A DNA stretch of 64,000 nt, taken from the NCBI RefSeq assembly GCF_947648125.1, contig NZ_CANSMR010000006.1, positions 186,001 through 250,000 of the forward strand, written 5' to 3'. Below, in pieces: positions 29,476-40,755 of the stretch. A model generated the notes under the pieces. The model saw only the letters and a program-made list of their open reading frames with translations. It was not told the origin of the DNA and did not search any database. Source of the stretch: an uncultured Bradyrhizobium sp. GTDB taxonomy: Bacteria; Pseudomonadota; Alphaproteobacteria; Rhizobiales; Xanthobacteraceae. The first letter of the stretch is position 1. Every line of letters begins with the position of its first letter. Position numbers and translations under genes: made by a program.

Positions 29476-29505
29476 TTGACAATTATTTTAAGTATAAAAT
29501 AATAT
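29476..29505 (+). promoter_or_regulatory. Promoter with MarR-type operator for the aromatic operon
   Basis: TTGACA at 29476-29481 is a consensus -35 element and TAATAT at 29500-29505 a fitting -10 (18-bp spacer). The spacer holds a perfect 22-bp inverted repeat at 29482-29503: ATTATTTTA, AGTA spacer, TAAAATAAT. A repressor bound here would block polymerase. The same operator is found upstream of the CoA ligase at 39001. Confidence 0.8.
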
Positions 29506-29546
29506 GCCGTATCGGCTGGCGGGGAAACCGACCCCGGCCGAAGCCA

Positions 29547-29597
29547 GAGCATGATCCGGAAGAGTGGCACCCGGTTTTCCGACGCGATCATGCTCAA
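29547..29597. repeat. Short dispersed repeat (family E)
   Basis: GAGCATGATC and GATCATGCTC form perfect 10-bp inverted arms around a CCGGTTTTCC centre. A familiar repeat of Rhizobiales intergenic DNA. It lies between the promoter and the start codon of the fused monooxygenase. Confidence 0.8.
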
Positions 29598-29616
29598 ACG
29601 GAAAGGCGAGAACGCC

Positions 29617-31932
29617 ATGCGCATCGTTTGCATTGGAGGCGGGCCGGCCGGGCTCTACTTCGGCATCCTGATGAAGATGCTGGATCCCGCGCACCGGATC
29701 TCCGTGGTCGAGCGCAACCGGCCCTACGACACCTTCGGTTTTGGCGTGGTGTTCTCCGATGCGACCATGGACAACATGCGCAAATGGGACCCGGTCACCG
29801 CTGATACGATCGAGCAGGCCTTCAACCATTGGGACGACATCGAGGTCCTGATCAAGGGCCGCCGCATGCGCACCACCGGCCACGGCTTCGTCGGCATCGG
29901 CCGCAAGCGGCTGCTCAACATCCTGCAGGCGCGGGCCGAGGAGCTCGGTGTCGAATTGATCTTCGAGCGCGAGGTCAATTCCGACCTCGAGTTTCCCGAC
30001 GCCGATCTGATCGTGGCGTGCGACGGGGTGAACTCGAAGGTTCGCGCCAAGTATGCCGAGACCTTCCAGCCCGACATGCTGATGCGGCCGAACCGCTATA
30101 TCTGGCTTGGCACCAACCGGCCGTTCGATGCTTTCACCTTCGACTTCCGCAAGACCGAGCATGGCTGGTTCCAGTCGCACATCTACAAGTTCGAGGAGGG
30201 CGCGGCGACCTTCATCGTCGAGACCACCGAGGAGGCGTATCTTGCCCACGGCCTCGACAAGATGGATCAGGGAGAATCCATCGCGTTCTGCGAGAACGTC
30301 TTCGCTGAAATCCTCGAGGGGCATCATCTGGTCTCCAACGCGCGGCATCTGCGCGGCTCGGCCTGGCTGTCGTTTCCGCGGCTGATCTGCGGCAAGTGGA
30401 CCGCGTTCAACGGCAACAGCCATGTCGTGCTGATGGGCGATGCCGCCCATACCGCGCATTTCGCAATCGGCTCGGGCACCAAGCTCGCGCTGGAAGATGC
30501 GATCGAGCTCACCAACCAGTTCAAGATCCATGGCGCGGCCAGGGACAGCATTCCCACCGTGCTGAAGGCTTACGAGGAGCTGCGCCGGGTCGATGTGGCG
30601 CGGATCCAGAATGCCGCGCGCAACGCGATGGAATGGTTCGAGGTGGTCGGCTCGCGTTATGCCGACACGCTGGAGCCCGAGCAGTTCATGTATTCGCTGC
30701 TGACCCGCTCGCAGCGCATCAGCCACGAGAATCTGCGGCTGCGCGACAAGACATGGCTCGAAGGCTACGAGCGCTGGTTCGCCGAGCGCAGCGGCGTGCC
30801 CGCGACCAACGACCGCGTCACGCCGCCGATGCTGACGCCGTTCCAGATCCGCGGCCTGTCGCTGCACAACCGGATCATCGTCTCGCCGATGGCGATGTAT
30901 TCGGCGGAGGAGGGCGTGCCGAACGACTTTCACCTGGTGCATTTCGGCTCCCGCGCGCTCGGCGGCGCCGGCCTCTTGTTCACCGAGATGACCTGCGTCT
31001 CGCCGGAGGCGCGGATCACGCCCGGCTGCTGCGGCCTGTGGAACGACGCGCAGGCGGTGGCCTACAAGCGGATCGTCGAGTTCGTGCACCGCAATTCGCA
31101 AGCCCGGATCGGCATCCAGCTCGGCCATGCCGGCCGGAAGGGTTCGACGCGGGTCGCCTGGGAAGGCATGGACGAACCGCTGCCGGACCATAACTGGCCG
31201 CTGGTGTCGGCCTCACCGGTGCCGTACCTGTCCGACGGCCAGATCCCGGAGCCGATGAGCCGCGCCGAAATGGACGAGGTGTGCGACCAGTTCGTTGCCG
31301 CCGCCAGGCGTGGTGCCGCCGCGGGCTTCGATATTCTGGAGCTGCATTGCGCCCACGGCTATCTGCTGTCGAGCTTCCTGTCGCCGCTGACCAACCGCCG
31401 CACCGACGCCTATGGCGGATCGATCGAGAACCGCGCGCGTTATCCGCTGGAAGTGTTCCGCGCGATCCGTGCGGTGTGGCCGGAGGACAAGCCGATGTCG
31501 GTCCGCCTGTCCTGTCACGACTGGGCCGAGGGCGGCAACACGCCCGAGGAGGCGCTGGCCTTCGCAAAACTGTTCAAGGCGGCCGGCGCCGACCTGATCG
31601 ATTGTTCCTCGGGCCAGGTCTGGGCCGACGATCATCCGATCTATGGCCGGCTCTACCAGACGCCGTTCGCCGACAAGATCCGCAACGAGGTCGGCATCGC
31701 CACCATCGCGGTCGGCGCGATCTCGGAGGCGGACCACGCGAACTCGATCATCGCCGCCGGCCGGGCCGATCTCTGCGCTATCGCGCGGCCGCATCTGGCC
31801 GATCCAGCCTGGACGCTGCATGAGGCCGCGAAGATCGGCGTCAAGCAGATCGCCTGGCCGAAGCAGTATCTGTCGGGCAAGTCGCAATACGAGGCCAATC
31901 TCGAACGGTTAGCCGCGGGAGGGAAGGCATGA
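29617..31932 (+). CDS. Bifunctional flavin monooxygenase/Old Yellow Enzyme, 2-aminobenzoyl-CoA monooxygenase/reductase or salicylyl-CoA 5-hydroxylase type
   Basis: 771 residues. Residues 1-390 are a class A flavoprotein monooxygenase with [10 protein letters not shown] at the N-terminus and the second FAD motif [15 protein letters not shown]. From about residue 405 ([20 protein letters not shown]) comes an Old-Yellow-Enzyme domain with LGHAGRKGS and the active-site region [20 protein letters not shown]. This architecture is known for 2-aminobenzoyl-CoA monooxygenase/reductase of Azoarcus and for proteins named salicylyl-CoA 5-hydroxylase/oxidoreductase. The CoA ligase, RidA and formamidase-like neighbours make the 2-aminobenzoyl-CoA role the better inference. 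The stop overlaps the SDR start (ATGA). Confidence 0.87.
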
Positions 31933-32708
31933 CACGCTTCTGGCCCAACGCACATGCGCTCGTCACCGGTGCGGGTTCCGGTATCGGCGCCGCGACGGCG
32001 ATCGCACTCGCAAAGGCCGGGGTGCGCGTCAGCATTGCCGGACGTCGGATCGATGCGCTGAAGGCAACGGCGGCGTTGCTCGGTGAGCACGCGGGCGTCG
32101 CTGTTTCGATCGACGCGACCGATGAAGCGGCGGTGACCAAGGGCGTCGCGCAGATCGAGGCCGAGGCCGGCCCGATAGACATCCTCGTCAACAACGCCGG
32201 GAAGGCTGCGAGCGCGCCGTTCGACAAGACGAGCGCGGCGCTATGGGCGGACATGCTGGCGAGCAATCTCTCCAGCGTGTTTCTGGTGACGCATGCGGTG
32301 TTGCCAGGGATGGCGCAGCGCGGCCGCGGGCGGGTGATCAACGTTGCCTCGACCGCCGGTCTCACCGGATACGCCTATGTCTCGGCCTATGTCGCCGCCA
32401 AGCACGGCGTCGTCGGTCTGACGCGCTCGCTGGCGCTAGAATACGCGCGGCGCGGCATCACCGTGAATGCGGTCTGCCCCGGCTACACCGACACGCCGCT
32501 GGTCGCGGATGCCGCAGCGAACATCGTCGCCAAGACCGGCCGCAGCGAGCAGGAGGCGCGGGCTGCGCTCGCCAAGGTCAATCCAATGCAGCGGCTGGTC
32601 ACGCCGGAGGAGGTCGCCGACACCATCCTCTGGCTCGCGTCCGAGGGCGCATCATCAATCAACGGACAAGCCGTCGCGGTTGCCGGCGGTGAAGTCTTTA
32701 CCGGGTGA
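31929..32708 (+). CDS. SDR-family dehydrogenase (3-hydroxyacyl-CoA type possible)
   Basis: 259 residues. Classic SDR: cofactor motif [19 protein letters not shown], catalytic Ser in [10 protein letters not shown], and YVAAK. The length is typical. In the operon between the fused monooxygenase and the enoyl-CoA hydratase it probably oxidises a ring-derived hydroxyacyl-CoA or alcohol. Confidence 0.9.
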
Positions 32709-32719
32709 AGGAACACGTC

Positions 32720-33559
32720 ATGTCCGAGATGAAAGCAAAGCTCCGTCCGTTCAAGGATTATCCCGCAAAGCATTTCCGCTGGCAGGTCGATGCGAACGGG
32801 CGCGTCGCGACCATCACGCTGAACCGGCCGGACAAGAAGAACCCGCTGACCTTCGAGTCCTACGAGGAGCTGCGCGATCTCTTCACCAACCTCAAATACG
32901 CCTCCGATGTCCGCGCCATCGTGCTGACCGGCGCCGAGGGCAATTTCTGCTCCGGCGGCGACGTGTTCGAGATCATCGAGCCGTTGACGCGGATGGCGAT
33001 GCCGGACCTGCTCGCCTTCACCCGGATGACCGGCGAAGTGGTGCGGGCGATGCGCAAATGCCCGCAGATCATCGTGGCCGCGATCGACGGCATCTGCGCC
33101 GGGGCCGGTGCGATGCTGGCGCTGGCGTCCGACCTGCGGCTGGCGACGCCGCAAGCCAAGACCGCATTCCTGTTCACCCGCGTTGGCCTCGCCGGCGCCG
33201 ACATGGGCGCGTGCGGGCTGCTGCCGCGCGTGATCGGGCAGGGCCATGCTGCCGATCTGCTCTACACCGGCCGCGCGATGAGCGCCAACGAAGGTTTTGC
33301 GTGGGGCTTTCACAACCGCCTGGTGCCGCCGGCGGAGCTTGCCGCCGCCGCGCAGGAACTGGCGCGCTCGCTTGCGGATGGACCGTGGTTCGCGCATGGC
33401 GTGACGAAGACGATGTTCAATCAGGAATGGGCGATGGGCGTCGACGAGATGATCGAGTCCGAAGCGCAGGCGCAGGCGATCTGCATGGTGACCGGTGATT
33501 TCCGCCGCGCCTTCGAGGCCTTTGCCGCCAAGCAGAAACCCGCCTTCGAGGGCAATTGA
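32720..33559 (+). CDS. Enoyl-CoA hydratase/isomerase family protein
   Basis: 279 residues from the ATG at 32720 (GAAGGAAC upstream); the GTG at 32705 overlaps the SDR stop as an alternative. The crotonase fold is clear: [35 protein letters not shown] and the oxyanion-hole stretch [20 protein letters not shown]. Probably hydrates or opens the ring-derived acyl-CoA in the aromatic pathway. Confidence 0.88.
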
Positions 33560-33560
33560 G

Positions 33561-33956
33561 ATGATCGAGATCCTGCAACCGGAAGGATGGGCCAAGCCGA
33601 TCGGCTACGCCAACGGCATGGCCGCGCGCGGCAAACAGATCTTCATCGCCGGCCAGATCGGCTGGAACGGGCAATGCGTGTTCGAGACTGATGATCTCGT
33701 CGCGCAGATCGGCCAGACCCTGCGCAACATCGTCGCGGTCGCCGCCGCCGGCGGGGCCGGGCCCGAGCACATCGTGTCGATGACCTGGTTCTTGCTCGAC
33801 CGCAAGGAATATTCCGCGCGGCTGAAGGAGATCGGCGCGGTCTATCGCGACGTGATCGGCCGGCGGTTTCCGGCGATGACCGCGATCCAGGTTGCCGGAC
33901 TGATCGAGGATCGCGCCAAGGTGGAAATCCAGGCCATCGCGGTGGTGCCGGATTAA
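33561..33956 (+). CDS. RidA-family protein
   Basis: 131 residues of the YjgF/RidA fold: [20 protein letters not shown], then [20 protein letters not shown]. RidA proteins hydrolyse reactive enamine/imine intermediates. The start lies 1 bp after the enoyl-CoA hydratase stop, so it is the last gene of that operon. The RidA partner fits a pathway with an amino-substituted ring intermediate. Confidence 0.9.
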
Positions 33957-34266
33957 CGACGATGCTGGATTGTCAAACCCGTCATCCCCGCGCAAAGGCT
34001 CCGCCTTTGTCTCTGGAGGAGCCGCGAAGCGGCGTCTCGAAGGATGCACGGCCCGGCTGGTGGCCGTCGACCCTTCGAGACCCGCGTTCCGCGCTCCTCA
34101 GGGTGACGGGGATGGATGGGAGTGCGCTGAGCGACTGTTAATCCTAAGGCGAAACAGCGCGGATCGGCCAAGACCGGCGGCGACAAAGCAGCTTGCGGCC
34201 GGGCGAGGGGGGTGCGACCCTAGGCGAAAGTGTAAAAGCGTCCTGTTGTGAGTGGAGTAAGGGACG
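33957..34266. other. Intergenic stretch with a palindromic repeat
   Basis: Mostly occupied by the 33978-34110 repeat. The remainder leading to 34267 carries no recognised gene or operator. Confidence 0.5.
33978..34110. repeat. Dispersed palindromic repeat (family F)
   Basis: CCCGTCATCCC at the left and GGGTGACGGG at the right are inverted. Inside are GGAGGAGCCGCGAAGCGGCG and the pair GTCTCGAAGG/CCTTCGAGAC. Confidence 0.7.
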
Positions 34267-35508
34267 ATGAAGGCGATTATCGTCGGAGGCGGAATCGGAG
34301 GCCTCACCACTGCGCTGATGCTGCGCTCGCGCGGTATCAGTTGCGAGCTGTACGAGCAATCGGAGACGATTCGCGAGCTCGGCGTCGGCATCAACACATT
34401 GCCGCATGCGATCCGCGAGCTGGCGGGGCTTGGCTTGCTCGACAAGCTCGACGAGGTCGCGATCCGCACCTATGAGCTGTTCTATCTGACGCGGCACGGC
34501 CAGCAGGTCTGGCACGAGAAGCGCGGGCTCGATGCCGGCCACGACGTGCCGCAATTCTCTGTTCATCGCGGCCGCCTGCAGGGCGTGATCCATCAGGCCG
34601 TGATCGACCGGCTTGGCGCCGATGCAATCCGCACCGGCTGCCGGCTCGGCTCCTTCACGCAGGACGAGGGCGGCGTCTCCGCGTATTTCTTCGATCGCAG
34701 CGGCAGCCATGTGCACACCGCGCGCGGCGATATCCTGATCGGCGCCGACGGCATTCACTCCAAGGTGCGGCAGACGTTGTTTCCGGATGAGGGCGGGCCG
34801 TGCTGGAACGGGCTGATGCTGTGGCGCGGCGCCACCGACTGGCCGGCCTTCCTGACCGGACGTTCGATGATCATCGCCGGCGGGTTGAACGCCAAGGCCG
34901 TGATCTATCCGATCGCGCCGGGATCGAGCCCGGCGAGCCGCCTCACCAATTGGGCGGTACTGGTGCGGATCGGCGACGGCTCCGCGCCGCCGCCGCGCCG
35001 CGAGGGCTGGTCCAATCTCGGCCGGCGCGACGAGATGATGCCCTACGTCACCAGCTTCACGATCCCGCAGGTCGACTTCGCCGGCCTGATCAACGCGACG
35101 CCGGAGTTCTGGGAGTATCCGTGCTGTGATCGCGATCCGCTGCCCTATTGGTCGAGTGGCCGCGTCACGCTGCTCGGCGACGCCGCGCATCCGATGTATC
35201 CAGTCGGCTCGAACGGCGCGTCGCAGGCCATTCTCGATGCGCGCTGCCTCGCCGACATGCTGGCGCGATCGGAGCATCCGCGCCAGGCGCTGGCCGGCTA
35301 TGAGCGGCAGCGGCTGCCGATGACCGCCGACATCGTCGCCTCCAACCGCCGCGGCGGGCCGGAGGGCGTGATCGACGCCGTCGAGCAGCTCGCGCCGCAG
35401 GGCTTTACCGACGTCGACACGATCCTCAACTACGAGGCGCGCGAGGCGATCGTGCGTGGTTATGCCGCCAAGGCCGGCTTCGCCGCGCGCGTGGTGGCGC
35501 GGCAGTAA
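34267..35508 (+). CDS. FAD-dependent aromatic monooxygenase (PhzS-like)
   Basis: 413 residues. The N-terminal FAD motif is VGGGIGGLTTALMLRSRG, followed by RELGVGINTLPHAIREL. DG-type motif DILIGADGIHSKVR and GDAAHPMYPVGSNGASQAIL complete a class A hydroxylase. The split substrate region suits hydroxylation of a carboxylated aromatic ring. It has its own start after repeat F and no obvious copy of the MarR operator, so it may be a separate unit. Confidence 0.88.
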   Translation: MKAIIVGGGIGGLTTALMLRSRGISCELYEQSETIRELGVGINTLPHAIRELAGLGLLDKLDEVAIRTYELFYLTRHGQQVWHEKRGLDAGHDVPQFSVHRGRLQGVIHQAVIDRLGADAIRTGCRLGSFTQDEGGVSAYFFDRSGSHVHTARGDILIGADGIHSKVRQTLFPDEGGPCWNGLMLWRGATDWPAFLTGRSMIIAGGLNAKAVIYPIAPGSSPASRLTNWAVLVRIGDGSAPPPRREGWSNLGRRDEMMPYVTSFTIPQVDFAGLINATPEFWEYPCCDRDPLPYWSSGRVTLLGDAAHPMYPVGSNGASQAILDARCLADMLARSEHPRQALAGYERQRLPMTADIVASNRRGGPEGVIDAVEQLAPQGFTDVDTILNYEAREAIVRGYAAKAGFAARVVARQ

Positions 35509-35549
35509 GTCCTTGAAGAAGGAGACGCCCGGCCGGCCATCTCCACATT

Positions 35550-35633
35550 GTCATTGCGAGGAGCGAAGCGACGAAGCAATCCATCGTTCCGCGATCGCTG
35601 AACCATGGATTGCTTCGCTTCGCTCGCAATGAC
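35550..35633. repeat. Dispersed palindromic repeat (family A, copy 2)
   Basis: GTCATTGCGAG and CTCGCAATGAC arms with GCGACGAAGCAATCCA and TGGATTGCTTCGC inside. Same family as 6317-6437 but without the internal insertion. Confidence 0.85.
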
Positions 35634-35642
35634 GGAGGAATC

Positions 35643-36095
35643 CTACGCCGGGGGCGGCGGCAGGAAGTGGATGTTGTGCTCGGCGGCGAGCCGCACCACG
35701 TCGTCCGGGTTCTGCTCCTTCATGTTGTGGATCGCCCAGAACAGGTCATACAGCCTGCGCGTCGGCGACACCCAGAACAGCGTCTTGGCCAACTGCTGCG
35801 ACTTGTTGAAGATGCCGTGCGGCTTGCCGGCCGGCAGGCGCACCAGATCGCCTGGCGTGGCGGATTCATCGGCGCCGTCGAGCATGAAGTCGAGCTTGCC
35901 CTCGAGGATGTAGAGATACTCGTCCTGATCGGGATGGATGTGCGGCGGAACGAAAGTACCCGGCGGGAAGGTGGCGTGCCAGGAGAAGGAGTGCTCGGTG
36001 CGGCTCTTCGGCACATAGGTCTGGCCGAGGATGCTCCAGGAAATGCCCTGGATGCCCTCATTGGCGCGGGTGATGCCGGCGATCTCGTCTTTCAT
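35643..36095 (-). CDS. Cupin-domain protein
   Basis: 150 residues from the ATG at 36095. Cupin motif 1 lies in PPHIHPDQDEYLYILEGKLD and motif 2 in GDLVRLPAGKPHGIFN, giving a single-domain metal-binding cupin. Possibly a dioxygenase, isomerase or sensory protein of the aromatic region. Convergent with the FAD monooxygenase. The longer upstream start is disfavoured because it lies away from GAGGAAC. Confidence 0.85.
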   Translation of the reverse strand: MKDEIAGITRANEGIQGISWSILGQTYVPKSRTEHSFSWHATFPPGTFVPPHIHPDQDEYLYILEGKLDFMLDGADESATPGDLVRLPAGKPHGIFNKSQQLAKTLFWVSPTRRLYDLFWAIHNMKEQNPDDVVRLAAEHNIHFLPPPPA

Positions 36096-36125
36096 GTTTG
36101 TAGTTCCTCGATGTTTCAATTTTGC

Positions 36126-36169
36126 GCGTTTTCTTCACGCGAACCGGTGTCCACTTCGCTTGAAAACGC
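36126..36169. repeat. Short dispersed repeat (family B, copy 2)
   Basis: GCGTTTTC and GAAAACGC arms with ACGCGAACCGGTGTCCAC between them; see 14590-14635 for copy 1. Confidence 0.8.
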
Positions 36170-36177
36170 TTTGTGAG

Positions 36178-37344
36178 CTACTTGGCCGCGCAGTCCTTGG
36201 CGTAGCGATCGCCATAATTCGAAAAGACCTTTTCGACGATCTCGGTCTGGAATTTGCCGTCCGGCCGCTTCGCGACCTTGGTGAGGTAGAAATCCTGGAT
36301 CGGATAGCCGTTGTTGTTGAACTTGAAGTTACCGCGCAGCGAGGTGAAGTCGGCCTTCCTCAGCGCCGCCGCGACGGCGTCCTTGTTGGAGAGATCGCCC
36401 TTCACGGCCTTGACCGCGCTGTCGATCAACAGCGCTGCGTCATAGGCCTGCATGGCGTAGGTGCCGGGCACGCCCTTGTAGGCCGCCTCATAGGCCGCGA
36501 CGAACTTCTTGCTCTGGGGATTGTCGAGATCAGGCGCCCAGTTCGCACCGCCGAACATGCCGACCGCTGCGTCCTGCTGTGCGGGCAGGGTGGATTCGTC
36601 GACGGTGAAGGCGGAGAGCACCGGCACGGTCGCGCCGGCCTGCTTGTACTGCTTCACGAGGTTGACGCCCATGCCGCCGGGCATGAAGGTGAACAGCGCG
36701 TCCGGCTTCAGCGAGGCGATCTTGGAGAGCTCGGGCTGGAAATCGAGCGTGTTCAGCGGCGTGTAGGATTCCTCGACGATCTCGCCTTTGTAGTCGAGCT
36801 TGAAACCGGCGACGGAATCGCGGCCGGCCTGATAGTTCGGCACCAGCAAATAGACCCGCTTGTAGCCGCGGTCCTGCGCCACCTTGCCGAGAACCTCGTG
36901 CACCTGGTCGTTCTGGTACGACGTCACGTAGAAGAACGGGTTGCACTCCTTGCCGGCGTAGCTGGAGGGGCCGGCATTCGGGCTGATCAGGAAGGTCTTG
37001 CTGTCGGTGACCGGGCGGTGGATCGCCTGCAGGATGTTGGAGAAGATCGGGCCGACCACGAAGTCGACCTTGTCGCGCTCGAGCAGGCCGCGCACCTTGA
37101 CCACAGCACCGTCGGGCTTGAGTTCGTCGTCGGCGTTGACGATCTCGACCTCGCGACCGGCCATCTTGCCGCCGAGGTCCTTGATCGCGAGCGCAAAGCC
37201 GTCGCGGACCTGCTGGCCGAGCGCCGCAGCCGGGCCGGAGGTCGTCACCAGCACGCCGATCTTGATCTTCTCCTGTGCGCTCGCCGGTGTCACCGCGATA
37301 CCCAGCAGCGCCGCCAACCCCATGAGCTTCGTCACTTGTTTCAT
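36178..37344 (-). CDS. ABC transporter substrate-binding protein, branched-chain/aromatic type
   Basis: 388 residues. Signal peptide MKQVTKLMGLAALLGIAVT (cleavage after ASA), then Peripla_BP_6 opening KIKIGVLVTTSGPAAALGQQ and the characteristic KVDFVVGPIFSNIL. Distinct from the two related proteins at 17580 and 62230. Divergent from the MarR gene with two MarR-like sites in between, so it is probably the binding protein for the aromatic substrate or a related acid. No permease/ATPase in the window. Confidence 0.88.
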   Translation of the reverse strand: MKQVTKLMGLAALLGIAVTPASAQEKIKIGVLVTTSGPAAALGQQVRDGFALAIKDLGGKMAGREVEIVNADDELKPDGAVVKVRGLLERDKVDFVVGPIFSNILQAIHRPVTDSKTFLISPNAGPSSYAGKECNPFFYVTSYQNDQVHEVLGKVAQDRGYKRVYLLVPNYQAGRDSVAGFKLDYKGEIVEESYTPLNTLDFQPELSKIASLKPDALFTFMPGGMGVNLVKQYKQAGATVPVLSAFTVDESTLPAQQDAAVGMFGGANWAPDLDNPQSKKFVAAYEAAYKGVPGTYAMQAYDAALLIDSAVKAVKGDLSNKDAVAAALRKADFTSLRGNFKFNNNGYPIQDFYLTKVAKRPDGKFQTEIVEKVFSNYGDRYAKDCAAK

Positions 37345-37494
37345 GTCTCTCCCTCAACCACAGGCTTGATGTTTCGGCTTCAGCCCGTTTGGCCTCAGCT
37401 TAGTCCGACGCGCGCGACCGCTGCAAGCGATGTGGCATTTGCGTGAGGGCAAACGCCGCGCATCATACAGGTGCTGCACATGCAAGCGCCGCGC

Positions 37495-37520
37495 CAATTG
37501 CTTGAAGTTTAAAGAAATTG
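37495..37520. promoter_or_regulatory. MarR-type site 1
   Basis: CAATTGCTTG...AAGAAATTG arms around AAGTTTAAA give a 26-bp imperfect palindrome between the ABC binding protein and the MarR gene. It shares the core AAGTxTAAA with the operators at 29482 and 39001. Confidence 0.6.
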
Positions 37521-37577
37521 CAGGATCGGCCGGGCATGTCGGGCAGGATTCGCAATTGTCCTTGCGGCGCAGCGCGA

Positions 37578-37599
37578 ATTGCTTGAAGCTCAAAGCAAT
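37578..37599. promoter_or_regulatory. MarR-type site 2
   Basis: ATTGCTT and AAGCAAT form perfect 7-bp arms around GAAGCTCA. It lies 39 bp before the MarR start codon and resembles site 1. Candidate for MarR autoregulation. Confidence 0.6.
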
Positions 37600-37638
37600 C
37601 GGTCCGACCGAAACCCGGCGCGGAGGCACGATCGCCGC

Positions 37639-38133
37639 ATGAACCTCGATTCCGAAACCAAAGCCGTCGAACTGCCCGACGATCATGGCACCGAGCTCAG
37701 GCTGTGGCTGCGTCTCTTGACCTGCACCACGCTGATCGAAGGCGAGGTGCGCAGCCAGCTGCGTGAGAAGTTCGACGTCACCCTGCCGCGCTTCGACCTG
37801 ATGGCCCAGCTCGACAAGGTGTCCGACGGCATGACGCTGTCGGACCTGTCGAAGCGGATGATGGTGTCGAACGGCAACGTCACCGGGCTGGTCGAGCGGC
37901 TGGTCGAGTCCGGCCATCTCGATCGCCGCACCTCGGAGACCGACCGCCGCGTACAGTTCATCCGGCTGACCAAGCTCGGCCGCGCCGAGTTCCGCAAGAT
38001 GGCGGCCGAGCACGAGAAATGGATCGCCGATATCTTCGGTGACCTGTCGCCGAAGGATATCCGCGAACTGATGCGGCTGCTCGCCAAGGCCAAGGGTTCG
38101 GCCCAGCGCTCCGCCAAGGCGAGGACCGCTTGA
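37639..38133 (+). CDS. MarR-family regulator
   Basis: 164 residues with the winged helix LSDLSKRMMVSNGNVTGLVE, then RLVESGHLDRRTSETDRR. Typical ligands of this branch are aromatic acids or their CoA esters, which release the dimer from DNA. The palindromes at 37495, 37578, 29482 and 39001 are its proposed sites. The stop is 3 bp before the GTG start of the next gene. Confidence 0.88.
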   Translation: MNLDSETKAVELPDDHGTELRLWLRLLTCTTLIEGEVRSQLREKFDVTLPRFDLMAQLDKVSDGMTLSDLSKRMMVSNGNVTGLVERLVESGHLDRRTSETDRRVQFIRLTKLGRAEFRKMAAEHEKWIADIFGDLSPKDIRELMRLLAKAKGSAQRSAKARTA

Positions 38134-38136
38134 GCC

Positions 38137-38952
38137 GTGAGCGAGATAGATTACGAGGTCGAATACAACAACCGGGCACGGGTGCCGGAAAACCCGGCGC
38201 TGATGGCCGGCTGGGCGAGGGATTCCGCGGCCTATCGCGAGCAGCATCCGCCGCGTCGCCTGATCTATGGACCGGGCAGCCGCAACGTCATCGATCTCTT
38301 TGAGGGTAACAGCGACGGGCCGCTCGTTGTCTTCATCCATGGCGGCTATTGGCAGGCGCTCGACGGCTCGTCGTCGAGCCACTGTGCGCGGGGCCTCAAC
38401 GGCCACGGCATCAGCGTCGCGGTGCCGAGCTACGACCTCTGCCCCAACGTCACGGTCGGCGACATCATCGTCGAAATGCGCGCGGCGTCACGCGAACTGG
38501 CGAAGCTCGGCCGGCCGCTGGTCATGTCGGGACACTCCGCAGGCGGGCATCTTGCCGCATGCATGCTCGCGACCGATTGGCCGGCCTACGATGCGTCGCT
38601 GCCGACGAATCTGGTCAGGGCTGCTTACGCGATCTCAGGCCTGTTCGAGCTCGAGCCGTTGGTCGGCACCTCCATCAACAAGGCGCTTGGCCTTGACCGC
38701 GACGCAGCAAGGGCGGCGAGCCCGCTGCTCTGGAAAGCGCCCGCAGGCGCGACGCTCGATGCGGTGGTCGGCGGCAATGAAAGCGCCGAATATCACCGGC
38801 AGAGCCGGACCATCGCCGATGTCTGGGGCAAAGCGGGCGTGGCGACGCGGTTCGGCACCGTGCCCAATGCCAATCATTTCACCGCGATCGCACCGCTTGC
38901 CGACCCGGACTCGGCGATGGTCGCGCGGCTGAAGCAGCTCACGCAGATCTGA
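38137..38952 (+). CDS. Alpha/beta hydrolase, kynurenine formamidase-like
   Basis: 271 residues from a GTG at 38137. The motif VFIHGGYWQALDGSSS, and the nucleophile elbow MSGHSAGGHLAAC, match the alpha/beta-type arylformamidase family, which hydrolyses N-formylkynurenine or related amides. The acid/His region near HFTAIAPL is visible. Co-transcribed with MarR. The kynurenine branch would supply 2-aminobenzoate to the ligase below. It may instead be another amidase/esterase. Confidence 0.8.
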   Translation: MSEIDYEVEYNNRARVPENPALMAGWARDSAAYREQHPPRRLIYGPGSRNVIDLFEGNSDGPLVVFIHGGYWQALDGSSSSHCARGLNGHGISVAVPSYDLCPNVTVGDIIVEMRAASRELAKLGRPLVMSGHSAGGHLAACMLATDWPAYDASLPTNLVRAAYAISGLFELEPLVGTSINKALGLDRDAARAASPLLWKAPAGATLDAVVGGNESAEYHRQSRTIADVWGKAGVATRFGTVPNANHFTAIAPLADPDSAMVARLKQLTQI

Positions 38953-38991
38953 GGTTTGCAGGACCGCGCCATTTCCACGCGATTTCCACCC

Positions 38992-39022
38992 TTGCGCCAA
39001 ATTATTTTAAGTATAAAATGAT
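38992..39022 (+). promoter_or_regulatory. Second MarR-type operator, upstream of the CoA ligase
   Basis: The 22 bp at 39001-39022 repeat the 29482 operator with one mismatch: ATTATTTTA, AGTA, TAAAATGAT. TTGCGC at 38992 can act as -35. Located 90 bp before the ligase start. Confidence 0.75.
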
Positions 39023-39111
39023 TGGCGATTGGAACGCTGCCGGGCGTCCTCGATACTGGTCTTCTCGATGTTGATCTTGGCCTTTCTGGATGGAAAGCGA
39101 GGGGCAATCGA

Positions 39112-40755
39112 ATGTCAGGTGAACTTCCCGGGCTCGGCCCATCCGGGCATGTCGACGATTTCGCGCGGCGCAACCTGCCGCCGTTGGCGCAGTGGCCGCA
39201 GCTGCTGCTCGACCGGCCCGAATTCAGCTATCCCGATTATCTCAACGCCGCGGTCGAACTGACCGACCGCATCGTCGAGCAGGGCATGGGCGATCGCATC
39301 GCGCTGATCGGGAACGGCCGCCAGCGCACCTACAAGGAGTTGACCGACTGGTCGAACCGCCTGGCGCATGCGCTGGTGGAGAATTACGGTGTCAAGCCCG
39401 GCAATCGGGTCCTGATCCGCTCGGGCAACAATCCGGCGCTGGTCGCGGCCTGGCTCGCGGCGACCAAGGCCGGCGCTGTCGTCGTCAACACCATGCCGAT
39501 GCTGCGCGCCGGCGAGCTGGCCAAGATCGTCGACAAGGCCGAGATTGCGCTGGCGCTGACCGACAGCCGTATCGCGGATGAGCTGGTGGCCTGCGCCAAG
39601 ACCAGCAAATTCCTCAAGCAGGTGGTCAATTTCGACGGCACGCAAAACCACGATGCCGAGCTCGACCGGATCGCGCTGAACAAGCCGGTCAAGTTCGATG
39701 CGGTGAAGACCGGCCGCGACGACGTTGCGCTGCTCGGCTTCACGTCGGGCACGACAGGCGAACCCAAGGCGACGATGCACTTTCACCGCGACCTCCTGAT
39801 CGTGGCGGACGGCTATGCCAGGGAGGTGCTCAAGGTGACGCCGGACGACGTGTTCGTCGGCTCGCCGCCGCTCGCGTTTACATTCGGCCTTGGCGGGCTC
39901 GCGATCTTCCCGCTGCGCTTCGGCGCCACCGCGACGTTGCTTGAGAATGCGGCGCCGAGCGAGATGATCCGGATCATCGAGACCTACAGGGCGACGATCT
40001 GCTTCACGGCGCCGACCGCCTATCGGGCGATGATGGCCGCGATGGACAACGGCGCCGATCTGTCGTCGCTGCGGCTCGCGGTCTCGGCCGGCGAGACGCT
40101 GCCGGCGCCGGTGTTCGAGAGCTGGACGAAGAGGACCGGTAAGCCGATCCTCGACGGCATCGGCAGCACCGAGCTGCTGCACATCTTCATCACGAACCGC
40201 ACCGGCAGCGCCGTCGCCGGAACTACGGGCACGCCCGTCACCGGCTACGAGGCGAAGATCGTCGACGAAGACATGAACGAATTGCCGCCGGGCCAGGTCG
40301 GCAAGCTGGCGGTTCGCGGCCCAACCGGCTGCCGTTATCTCGCCGACTCCCGGCAGACCAAATATGTCCGCGACGGCTGGAACATCACGGGCGATGCCTT
40401 CGTCAGCGATGAGAATGGCCGGCTGTCATTCGTGGCGCGCGCCGACGACATGATCATTTCCGCGGGCTACAACATCGCCGGTCCCGAGGTCGAGGCGGCG
40501 CTGCTCGGGCATCCCGATGTCGCGGAATGCGCGGTGATCGGCGCACCCGACGAGGAGCGGGGGCAGATCGTCTCGGCCTTCATCGTGCTGAAGCAGGGCG
40601 CGCGCAACGACGATGGCGAGGTCAAGGCGTTGCAGGATCACGTCAAGGCGACGATCGCGCCGTACAAATACCCCCGCGCGATCGCTTTTGTCGAAGCGCT
40701 GCCGAAGACCCAGACCGGGAAGATCCAGCGCTTCAAGCTGCGCGAGGCAAGTTAG
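39112..40755 (+). CDS. Benzoate/2-aminobenzoate-CoA ligase-family enzyme
   Basis: 547 residues of the AMP-forming ANL family. The AMP motif is GFTSGTTGEPKATMHF, followed by DGWNITGDAF and, at the C-terminus, KTQTGKIQRFK with the catalytic Lys. The opening matches the benzoate-CoA and 2-aminobenzoate-CoA ligase branch. Makes the acyl-CoA ester used by the fused monooxygenase at 29617. The start at 39112 is preceded by GAGGGG. A GC-rich hairpin follows at 40760. Confidence 0.87.
   Translation: MSGELPGLGPSGHVDDFARRNLPPLAQWPQLLLDRPEFSYPDYLNAAVELTDRIVEQGMGDRIALIGNGRQRTYKELTDWSNRLAHALVENYGVKPGNRVLIRSGNNPALVAAWLAATKAGAVVVNTMPMLRAGELAKIVDKAEIALALTDSRIADELVACAKTSKFLKQVVNFDGTQNHDAELDRIALNKPVKFDAVKTGRDDVALLGFTSGTTGEPKATMHFHRDLLIVADGYAREVLKVTPDDVFVGSPPLAFTFGLGGLAIFPLRFGATATLLENAAPSEMIRIIETYRATICFTAPTAYRAMMAAMDNGADLSSLRLAVSAGETLPAPVFESWTKRTGKPILDGIGSTELLHIFITNRTGSAVAGTTGTPVTGYEAKIVDEDMNELPPGQVGKLAVRGPTGCRYLADSRQTKYVRDGWNITGDAFVSDENGRLSFVARADDMIISAGYNIAGPEVEAALLGHPDVAECAVIGAPDEERGQIVSAFIVLKQGARNDDGEVKALQDHVKATIAPYKYPRAIAFVEALPKTQTGKIQRFKLREAS

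Follow-up and report, generated by a model that had tools for sequence, protein, structure and literature searches.

A 64,000-nucleotide stretch (C6:186001-250000) of the 8.57-Mb genome of an uncultured Bradyrhizobium sp. (hereafter the window and its own genome) carries a cluster of genes that includes a fused FAD monooxygenase/old-yellow-enzyme (OYE)-type oxidoreductase, an aryl-CoA ligase, a periplasmic binding protein and a MarR-family regulator, MarR1, here named AbmR. Both the FAD monooxygenase and the OYE-type reductase halves of the fused enzyme are present, which is the architecture of 2-aminobenzoyl-CoA monooxygenase/reductase. The fused gene is the sole full-length copy in the own genome, and the best named matches of its product are Bradyrhizobium proteins, up to 97% identical. 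Four palindromic sites within the window, S1 to S4, lie upstream of these genes (Table 1). We propose, at a probability of roughly 0.77, that S1 to S4 are operators of an autoregulated AbmR and belong to a genome-wide anthranilate regulon. The sites, their conservation, their neighbors and the relatedness of the MarR proteins are read from sequence, and from these we infer the DNA binding, the ligand, the sense of regulation and the substrate.

S1 and S2 are the 22-bp inverted repeat that the initial annotation had reported at the promoters of the fused monooxygenase operon and the CoA ligase, and we recovered both. They share 21 of 22 bases, but just 4 and 5 of 20 positions in their 20-bp flanks. 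With the palindrome pattern at up to 3 mismatches, S1 and S2 are the sole places found on either strand of the window (4 rows), and 100 shuffles gave 0.00. S1 had been described as filling the space between the -35 and -10 elements. The -35 hexamer does abut S1, but the 22-bp site exceeds a 16–18 bp spacer and therefore covers the spacer plus the -10. In the S2 promoter the -35 is weaker (TTGCGC at 38992), with TAAAAT 16 bp on. The related dyads S3 and S4 also exist; rather than flanking the MarR gene, as first described, both lie inside the divergent gap between the binding-protein gene and marR.

Table 1. Predicted sites and genes of the cluster, in window positions.
Feature	Position	Strand	Remarks
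-35 hexamer TTGACA, fused-enzyme promoter	29476..29481	+	directly abuts S1; 11/12 consensus matches with AATAAT at 16 bp
Operator S1, ATTATTTTAAGTATAAAATAAT (predicted)	29482..29503	.	over spacer and -10 of fused-enzyme promoter
Fused FAD monooxygenase/OYE-type oxidoreductase (2-aminobenzoyl-CoA monooxygenase/reductase type)	29617..31932	+	NF006101 1353 bits, cut-off 1078
Short-chain dehydrogenase/reductase (SDR)	31929..32708	+	no NCBIfam model above its cut-off
Enoyl-CoA hydratase family protein	32720..33559	+	NF006107 475 bits, cut-off 330
Rid-family protein, Met at RidA catalytic Arg position	33561..33956	+	PF01042 67 bits, cut-off 27; TIGR00004 54 bits, below cut-off 106
FAD-dependent monooxygenase-like protein	34267..35508	+	NF005720 566 bits, cut-off 400, described as hypothetical protein
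Small cupin protein	35643..36095	-	PF07883
Periplasmic substrate-binding protein, branched-chain-amino-acid type	36178..37344	-	divergent from marR; no model above cut-off
Operator S3, ATTGCTTGAAGTTTAAAGAAAT (predicted)	37497..37518	.	between binding-protein gene and marR
Operator S4, ATTGCTTGAAGCTCAAAGCAAT (predicted)	37578..37599	.	39 bp before marR ATG
MarR-family regulator MarR1 (AbmR)	37639..38133	+	best solved relative 3boq, E 2.2e-21
Alpha/beta hydrolase with HGGYW	38137..38952	+	NF058665 208 bits, below cut-off 320
Operator S2, ATTATTTTAAGTATAAAATGAT (predicted)	39001..39022	.	before ligase gene
Aryl-CoA ligase	39112..40755	+	TIGR02262 376.4 bits, cut-off 375.25; start codon unsure

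All four sites are found in each of the 14 Bradyrhizobium loci that share the cluster (L024–L037; loci and genomes are cited by our L and G numbers), and the binding-protein gene is likewise kept in 14/14. TTGACA abuts S1 in 14 of 15 aligned sequences (it is 2 bp off in L034), and the remaining S1 flanks diverge. S2, S3 and S4 are weaker as footprints because their flanks are partly conserved. To reach beyond these loci, a weight matrix built from the window’s four sites alone was scored on the 200 bp upstream of the fused gene in 80 named loci of fused-gene homologs, for the greater part from Rhizobiales. A site of at least 18 bits was present in 71/80 loci (57/66 without the 14 closest), and one of at least 10 bits in 76/80. 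The 18-bit threshold was reached in 0.25% of shuffled upstream sequences and in 0.70% of random 200-bp stretches, which may themselves include other true sites. Across the genus, the pattern TATTTTAAGNATAAARTRW with at most one mismatch occurred in 211 of 265 genomes, with 0–4 matches each; its backward control had one match, in G011. An alternative explanation is that the palindromes are AT-rich promoter sequence, symmetrical by chance, and S1 does overlap the -35/-10 region, where such sequence is expected. We rejected this explanation, whose chance of being right we consider negligible, given the empty shuffles, the conservation of 22 bp at S1 while its flanks diverge, the rarity of the pattern across the genus and the weight-matrix scan. 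S1 lies 135 bp from the fused-gene ATG in the window and in L024, versus 78–95 bp in 10 of the 14 loci that share the cluster; the added stretch after S1 (29504–29616) contains the palindrome-like sequence CATGATCCGGAA...GATCATG.

The fused enzyme itself is encoded in 255/265 genus genomes and falls into three identity classes, which we label A (at least 85%; 38 genomes), B (68–75%; 37 genomes) and C (about 53%). These labels, like IadA/B below, are our own. Distances between site and gene were counted in genomes G001–G124, where class C is represented by 36 genes among the matches listed. A site lies less than 250 bp upstream of the fused gene for 21/21 class A genes, 18/21 class B genes and 22/36 listed class C genes, at 58–119 bp, 39–72 bp and 31–40 bp, respectively. 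The same operator thus stands before three diverged enzyme classes, and therefore persisted while the enzyme diverged or was exchanged. One operator type in front of three classes suggests enzyme exchange under a retained switch.

The initial annotation described the regulon as local. A scan of the own genome with the S1/S2-type pattern, allowing at most 2 mismatches, gave 5 forward and 5 reverse matches, against 0 and 2 for its backward control, and the S3/S4-type pattern with up to 3 mismatches gave 5 and 3, against 0 and 1. Sites at unrelated genes had been named as evidence that would speak against a regulon; the best additional matches (1 and 2 mismatches), which are those we followed up, fall at one place, the auxin-degradation (iad) locus on contig C33, and the remaining ones have 2–3 mismatches. 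Among relatives, 110 matches in genomes with known fused-gene places comprised 61 before the fused gene, 17 at the ligase position, 8 near isatin hydrolase and 24 elsewhere. We read 20 of these 24 places (those in G016, G040, G053 and G108 were left out). At eight, the operator precedes a hydrolase gene, then a tryptophan dioxygenase gene (product 86–100% identical to that of L132), then the start of a kynureninase gene; in G014 the dioxygenase and the kynureninase both exceed their NCBIfam cut-offs. Seven are ligase genes adjoining MarR1, and one is the iad regulator MarR2. At another three, an operator-type site precedes an acyl-CoA dehydrogenase gene outside the main cluster (L137:1958-1979, L144:2025-2043, L147:2009-2027); two of these dehydrogenases are 59–64% identical to the one that R. 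pomeroyi, Comamonas and Limnohabitans have in their fused-gene operons, and that of L137 is a different one. The last place (L140) is unexplained: no pathway gene follows, and the site is preceded by the amidase-like gene also seen in L144 and followed by an integrase. A purely local regulon was rejected on the additional operators at the iad locus and at tryptophan dioxygenase–kynureninase operons, and on the presence of the closest MarR paralogs on C33.

C33 encodes an isatin hydrolase (E 1e-94 to 5nnb), ring-hydroxylating oxygenase subunits (Ring_hydroxyl_A/B), and indolepyruvate-oxidoreductase-like genes, with IadA/B assigned through their similarity to annotated genes on plasmids. It also encodes a MarR matching PDB 7kym at 318 bits. 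The available text of PMC11630574 gives 7kym as the structure of B. japonicum IadR. The IadR-type MarR, the isatin hydrolase, the Rieske subunits and IadA/B together identify C33 as an iad locus. The end product of the iad pathway, as given in the accessible parts of PMC9613470 and PMC12633357, is anthranilic acid. On C33, the site TTTATTTTAAGTATAAAGTATC stands before MarR2 (L009:9963-9984), and between a second binding-protein gene and a racemase-like gene there are two more related sites. The same block (86–94% identical) occurs in B. cajani, Bradyrhizobium sp. OK095 and B. liaoningense, where a fused gene lies inside it and the MarR2 site stands directly between this gene and MarR2 (iad blocks of L086, L090 and L101). 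Because no second full-length fused gene is present in the own genome, the C33 site appears to have outlived its fused gene.

This association extends across the genus and beyond it. Isatin hydrolase is present in 60/74 genomes with a class A or B enzyme (26/38 class A, 34/37 class B) versus 51/191 others (Fisher p 3.9e-15 on genus-genome counts, genome relatedness ignored). The fused gene lies within 15 kb of isatin hydrolase in 29/37 class B cases, 0/38 class A cases and 0/37 listed class C cases. An Azospirillum plasmid has its iad genes in a single co-directional array with the fused-gene operon. On an Alloyangia plasmid, both MarR types occur together with the fused gene, an indole monooxygenase and a cyclase of the isatin-hydrolase type, and motif sites precede both the fused gene and TRAP transporter genes. 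The R. pomeroyi fused-gene operon adjoins tryptophan 2,3-dioxygenase. A Variovorax plasmid that we read to place IadR2 carries only the IadA gene, among insertion elements, with no annotated MarR or fused gene. Separately, CTTACTTTACATGTAAACGTAT (L104:7594-7615) and CTTACTTTACATATAAAATTAT (L157:14951-14972) lie just before the indolepyruvate-oxidoreductase alpha gene of two iad loci and are candidates for an IadR box with a different core.

NCBIfam and PDB matches place MarR1 in the MarR family, with no NCBIfam equivalog above its cut-off. Its closest relatives in the own genome are both on C33: MarR2 (45–47% identical) and MarR3 (36%). After these, identity drops to 26%. A MarR1 homolog occurs within the fetched flanks of 41 of the 80 named loci. 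In our tree, several joins of which are flagged as long-branch, the fused-gene-linked MarRs, MarR1, MarR2, MarR3 and the R. pomeroyi and Comamonas MarRs form one group (95/93) apart from the IadR type. Most of this group share a recognition helix of the type MV[ST]xGN[VIL]T, with departures such as KVSGGNVSG in MarR3. IadR proper (7kym) differs, having VTEQST in this helix, and its box is predicted to differ too. MarR1 instead groups with the second MarRs of iad loci: MarR2 and MarR3 of C33 and R. pomeroyi SPO_RS20370. The last of these is 3boq, the solved structure nearest MarR1, and adjoins an IadR-type MarR in an iad locus. For IadR2, the published second MarR of iad loci, the available part of PMC9613470 reports that neither ligand nor DNA site was found; we predict that IadR2 proteins belong to the MarR1 group. 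This kinship raises the question of whether the sites are bound mainly by another protein, such as MarR2, with MarR1 having a different target. MarR2 has a same-type site before its own gene and is close to MarR1 in sequence, but two of the four sites lie in MarR1’s own upstream region and all four persist with MarR1 in 14/14 loci, which makes this arrangement unlikely.

Control of a CoA-dependent aromatic pathway by a MarR protein is a known kind of regulon, and we regard the present one as real, widely conserved and new in scope. HcaR, BadR and FerC are similar MarR repressors of aryl-CoA pathways. CouR of Rhodococcus jostii, as described in the accessible text of PMC4737184, is likewise a MarR repressor: within one CoA-dependent aromatic pathway, its inverted repeats overlie the promoter elements of several operons, its own gene included. 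It differs in its box, cATTGA-N5-TCAATg versus ATTATTTTAAGTATAAAATAAT here, and in its pathway (PMC4737184), and was not named among the 45 PDB matches of MarR1. We found no paper on this regulon in the literature on anthranilate or 2-aminobenzoyl-CoA with MarR, a search whose coverage leaves out most subscription journals.

In our model, when no inducer is present, an AbmR dimer would sit on the -35/-10 region of the fused operon and of the ligase gene, and on the two sites in the gap between marR and the binding-protein gene. Anthranilate would arrive by uptake, from auxin via the iad locus and, in relatives, from tryptophan via kynureninase. Basal ligase would convert it to anthraniloyl-CoA, which by analogy is most likely the ligand that releases AbmR. 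The ligase, the fused 2-aminobenzoyl-CoA monooxygenase/reductase, the SDR, the hydratase, the Rid protein and the binding protein would then be made. Paralogous MarRs with a related recognition helix, together with the one same-type operator at the iad locus, would make this a single anthranilate regulon spread over the genome. The single MarR regulon of the initial annotation is retained for the fused operon, the ligase, MarR and the binding protein, all of which have conserved sites, but its description as local is not, with the operator and the MarR type recurring at the own genome’s auxin locus and at anthranilate-related operons of relatives. The same regulon could also respond to free anthranilate or an upstream metabolite rather than to the CoA thioester, a variant that we think somewhat unlikely. 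Many MarR proteins bind free aromatic acids. IadR itself binds indole-3-acetic acid, according to the available text of PMC9613470, but the ligand of CouR is given as the CoA thioester and not the free acid (PMC4737184, seen in part), and control of the ligase gene would be natural for a CoA-ester sensor.

Several observations weigh against an AbmR-controlled anthranilate regulon. The matrix was trained on the window, and near relatives are therefore not independent support. Nine of the 80 named loci have no 18-bit site upstream of the fused gene, L038, L040, L041 and L073 have no 10-bit site there, and neither R. pomeroyi (L106) nor Azospirillum (L156) has a 14-bit site before it. The strict pattern has no match at 14 of the 36 listed class C genes. 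Twelve of the 38 class A genomes have no isatin hydrolase. The own genome’s tryptophan dioxygenase has no operator within 9 kb of contig C31, and a search of the own genome for kynureninase (TIGR01814) found none. In the tree, the MarR group takes in an unrelated, long-branch MarR from the own genome (L116). Finally, the fused enzyme exceeds the cut-off of NF006101, and its NCBI name is that of the model, bifunctional salicylyl-CoA 5-hydroxylase/oxidoreductase.

Taken at face value, that name would make this a pathway for salicylate via salicylyl-CoA and gentisyl-CoA. The enzyme passes the curated cut-off (1353 versus 1078 bits), and in some plasmids (L109) the fused gene has FAH and cupin genes nearby that could be part of a gentisate route. 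But place and operator link the fused gene to iad, isatin hydrolase and kynureninase operons, a Rid gene is present in 78/80 named loci, and there is a precedent on plasmid pAL1 of Arthrobacter Rue61a, so that we consider salicylate quite improbable. The routes headed by the operator, isatin-hydrolase/iad loci on the one hand and tryptophan dioxygenase–kynureninase operons on the other, meet at anthranilate, which favors the 2-aminobenzoyl-CoA assignment of the initial annotation over the salicylyl-CoA name. The 2-aminobenzoyl-CoA pathway of Azoarcus evansii has a fused monooxygenase/reductase system like that of the window. On pAL1, too, genes for an aryl-CoA ligase, a Rid protein and a cupin lie near that of a fused monooxygenase/reductase, but the pAL1 enzyme is 50% identical to the window’s and the plasmid’s regulator is PaaX-type, not MarR. 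NCBI gives the pAL1 enzyme the salicylyl-CoA name as well. The accessible sections of PMC3534580 state that Rue61a grows on anthranilate, not salicylate, and that E. coli carrying its ligase genes showed anthranilate-CoA ligase activity; from gene order, ARUE_RS22905/22910 would be the genes 113p00220/00230 of that paper. The curated NF006101 name is applied to enzymes in clear anthranilate contexts.

The initial annotation further invoked RidA-type hydrolysis of enamines or imines. The window does encode a Rid-family protein, but this part of the proposal is weakened: the window protein, in PDB alignments, and 85/85 aligned linked Rid proteins, that of pAL1 included, have Met at the position of Arg105, the catalytic Arg by which RidA imine deaminases are recognized. 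As described in the available portions of PMC4433059 and PMC8113886, this Arg holds the carboxylate of the substrate and activity depends on it, and Rid4–7 proteins do not have it and show no deaminase activity. Here the expected enamine would be a CoA thioester and so have no free carboxylate; a protein that has lost the Arg could still be functional.

A broader idea, which we hold tentatively and at less than even odds, is that one anthraniloyl-CoA-sensing MarR family (AbmR, MarR2, MarR3 and the orphan IadR2) joins the auxin, tryptophan and free-anthranilate supplies via one operator into a single genome-wide regulon, and that the Met-bearing Rid protein is the missing enamine hydrolase for 2-amino-5-oxocyclohex-1-ene-carboxyl-CoA. 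If so, this family would supply the ligand and the DNA site that were not found for IadR2, and the Rid protein would bring an activity to a type thought to be without deaminase activity. The operator provides a specific DNA site and a few ligands to try, making the IadR2 question directly testable. Auxin destruction by the iad pathway in root bacteria stops at anthranilic acid in the published account (PMC9613470, available text); the operator would tie it to the recovery of nitrogen and carbon from anthranilate. The reading would also correct the misleading family name salicylyl-CoA 5-hydroxylase and points out a Rid subgroup with a testable activity.

Among the other genes of the cluster, the ligase is probably an anthranilate-CoA ligase: its best PDB match is anthranilate-CoA ligase 4wv3 (290 bits), followed by benzoate-CoA ligase (269), with a fit that is about equal. 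We are unsure whether the FAD-dependent monooxygenase-like gene is a regulon member; in L084 it adjoins cupin and binding-protein genes, with a site upstream. The hydrolase between marR and the ligase gene matches esterase 2pbl (135 bits), lipase 9n8r (100) and, third, kynurenine formamidase 4e11 (82.5), and is 41% identical to the hydrolase beside the R. pomeroyi tryptophan dioxygenase, which makes a kynurenine formamidase possible. At C31:3111-5359, the own genome’s tryptophan dioxygenase adjoins a gene for which no NCBIfam model matched at E 1e-15 and which might encode an unusual kynureninase.

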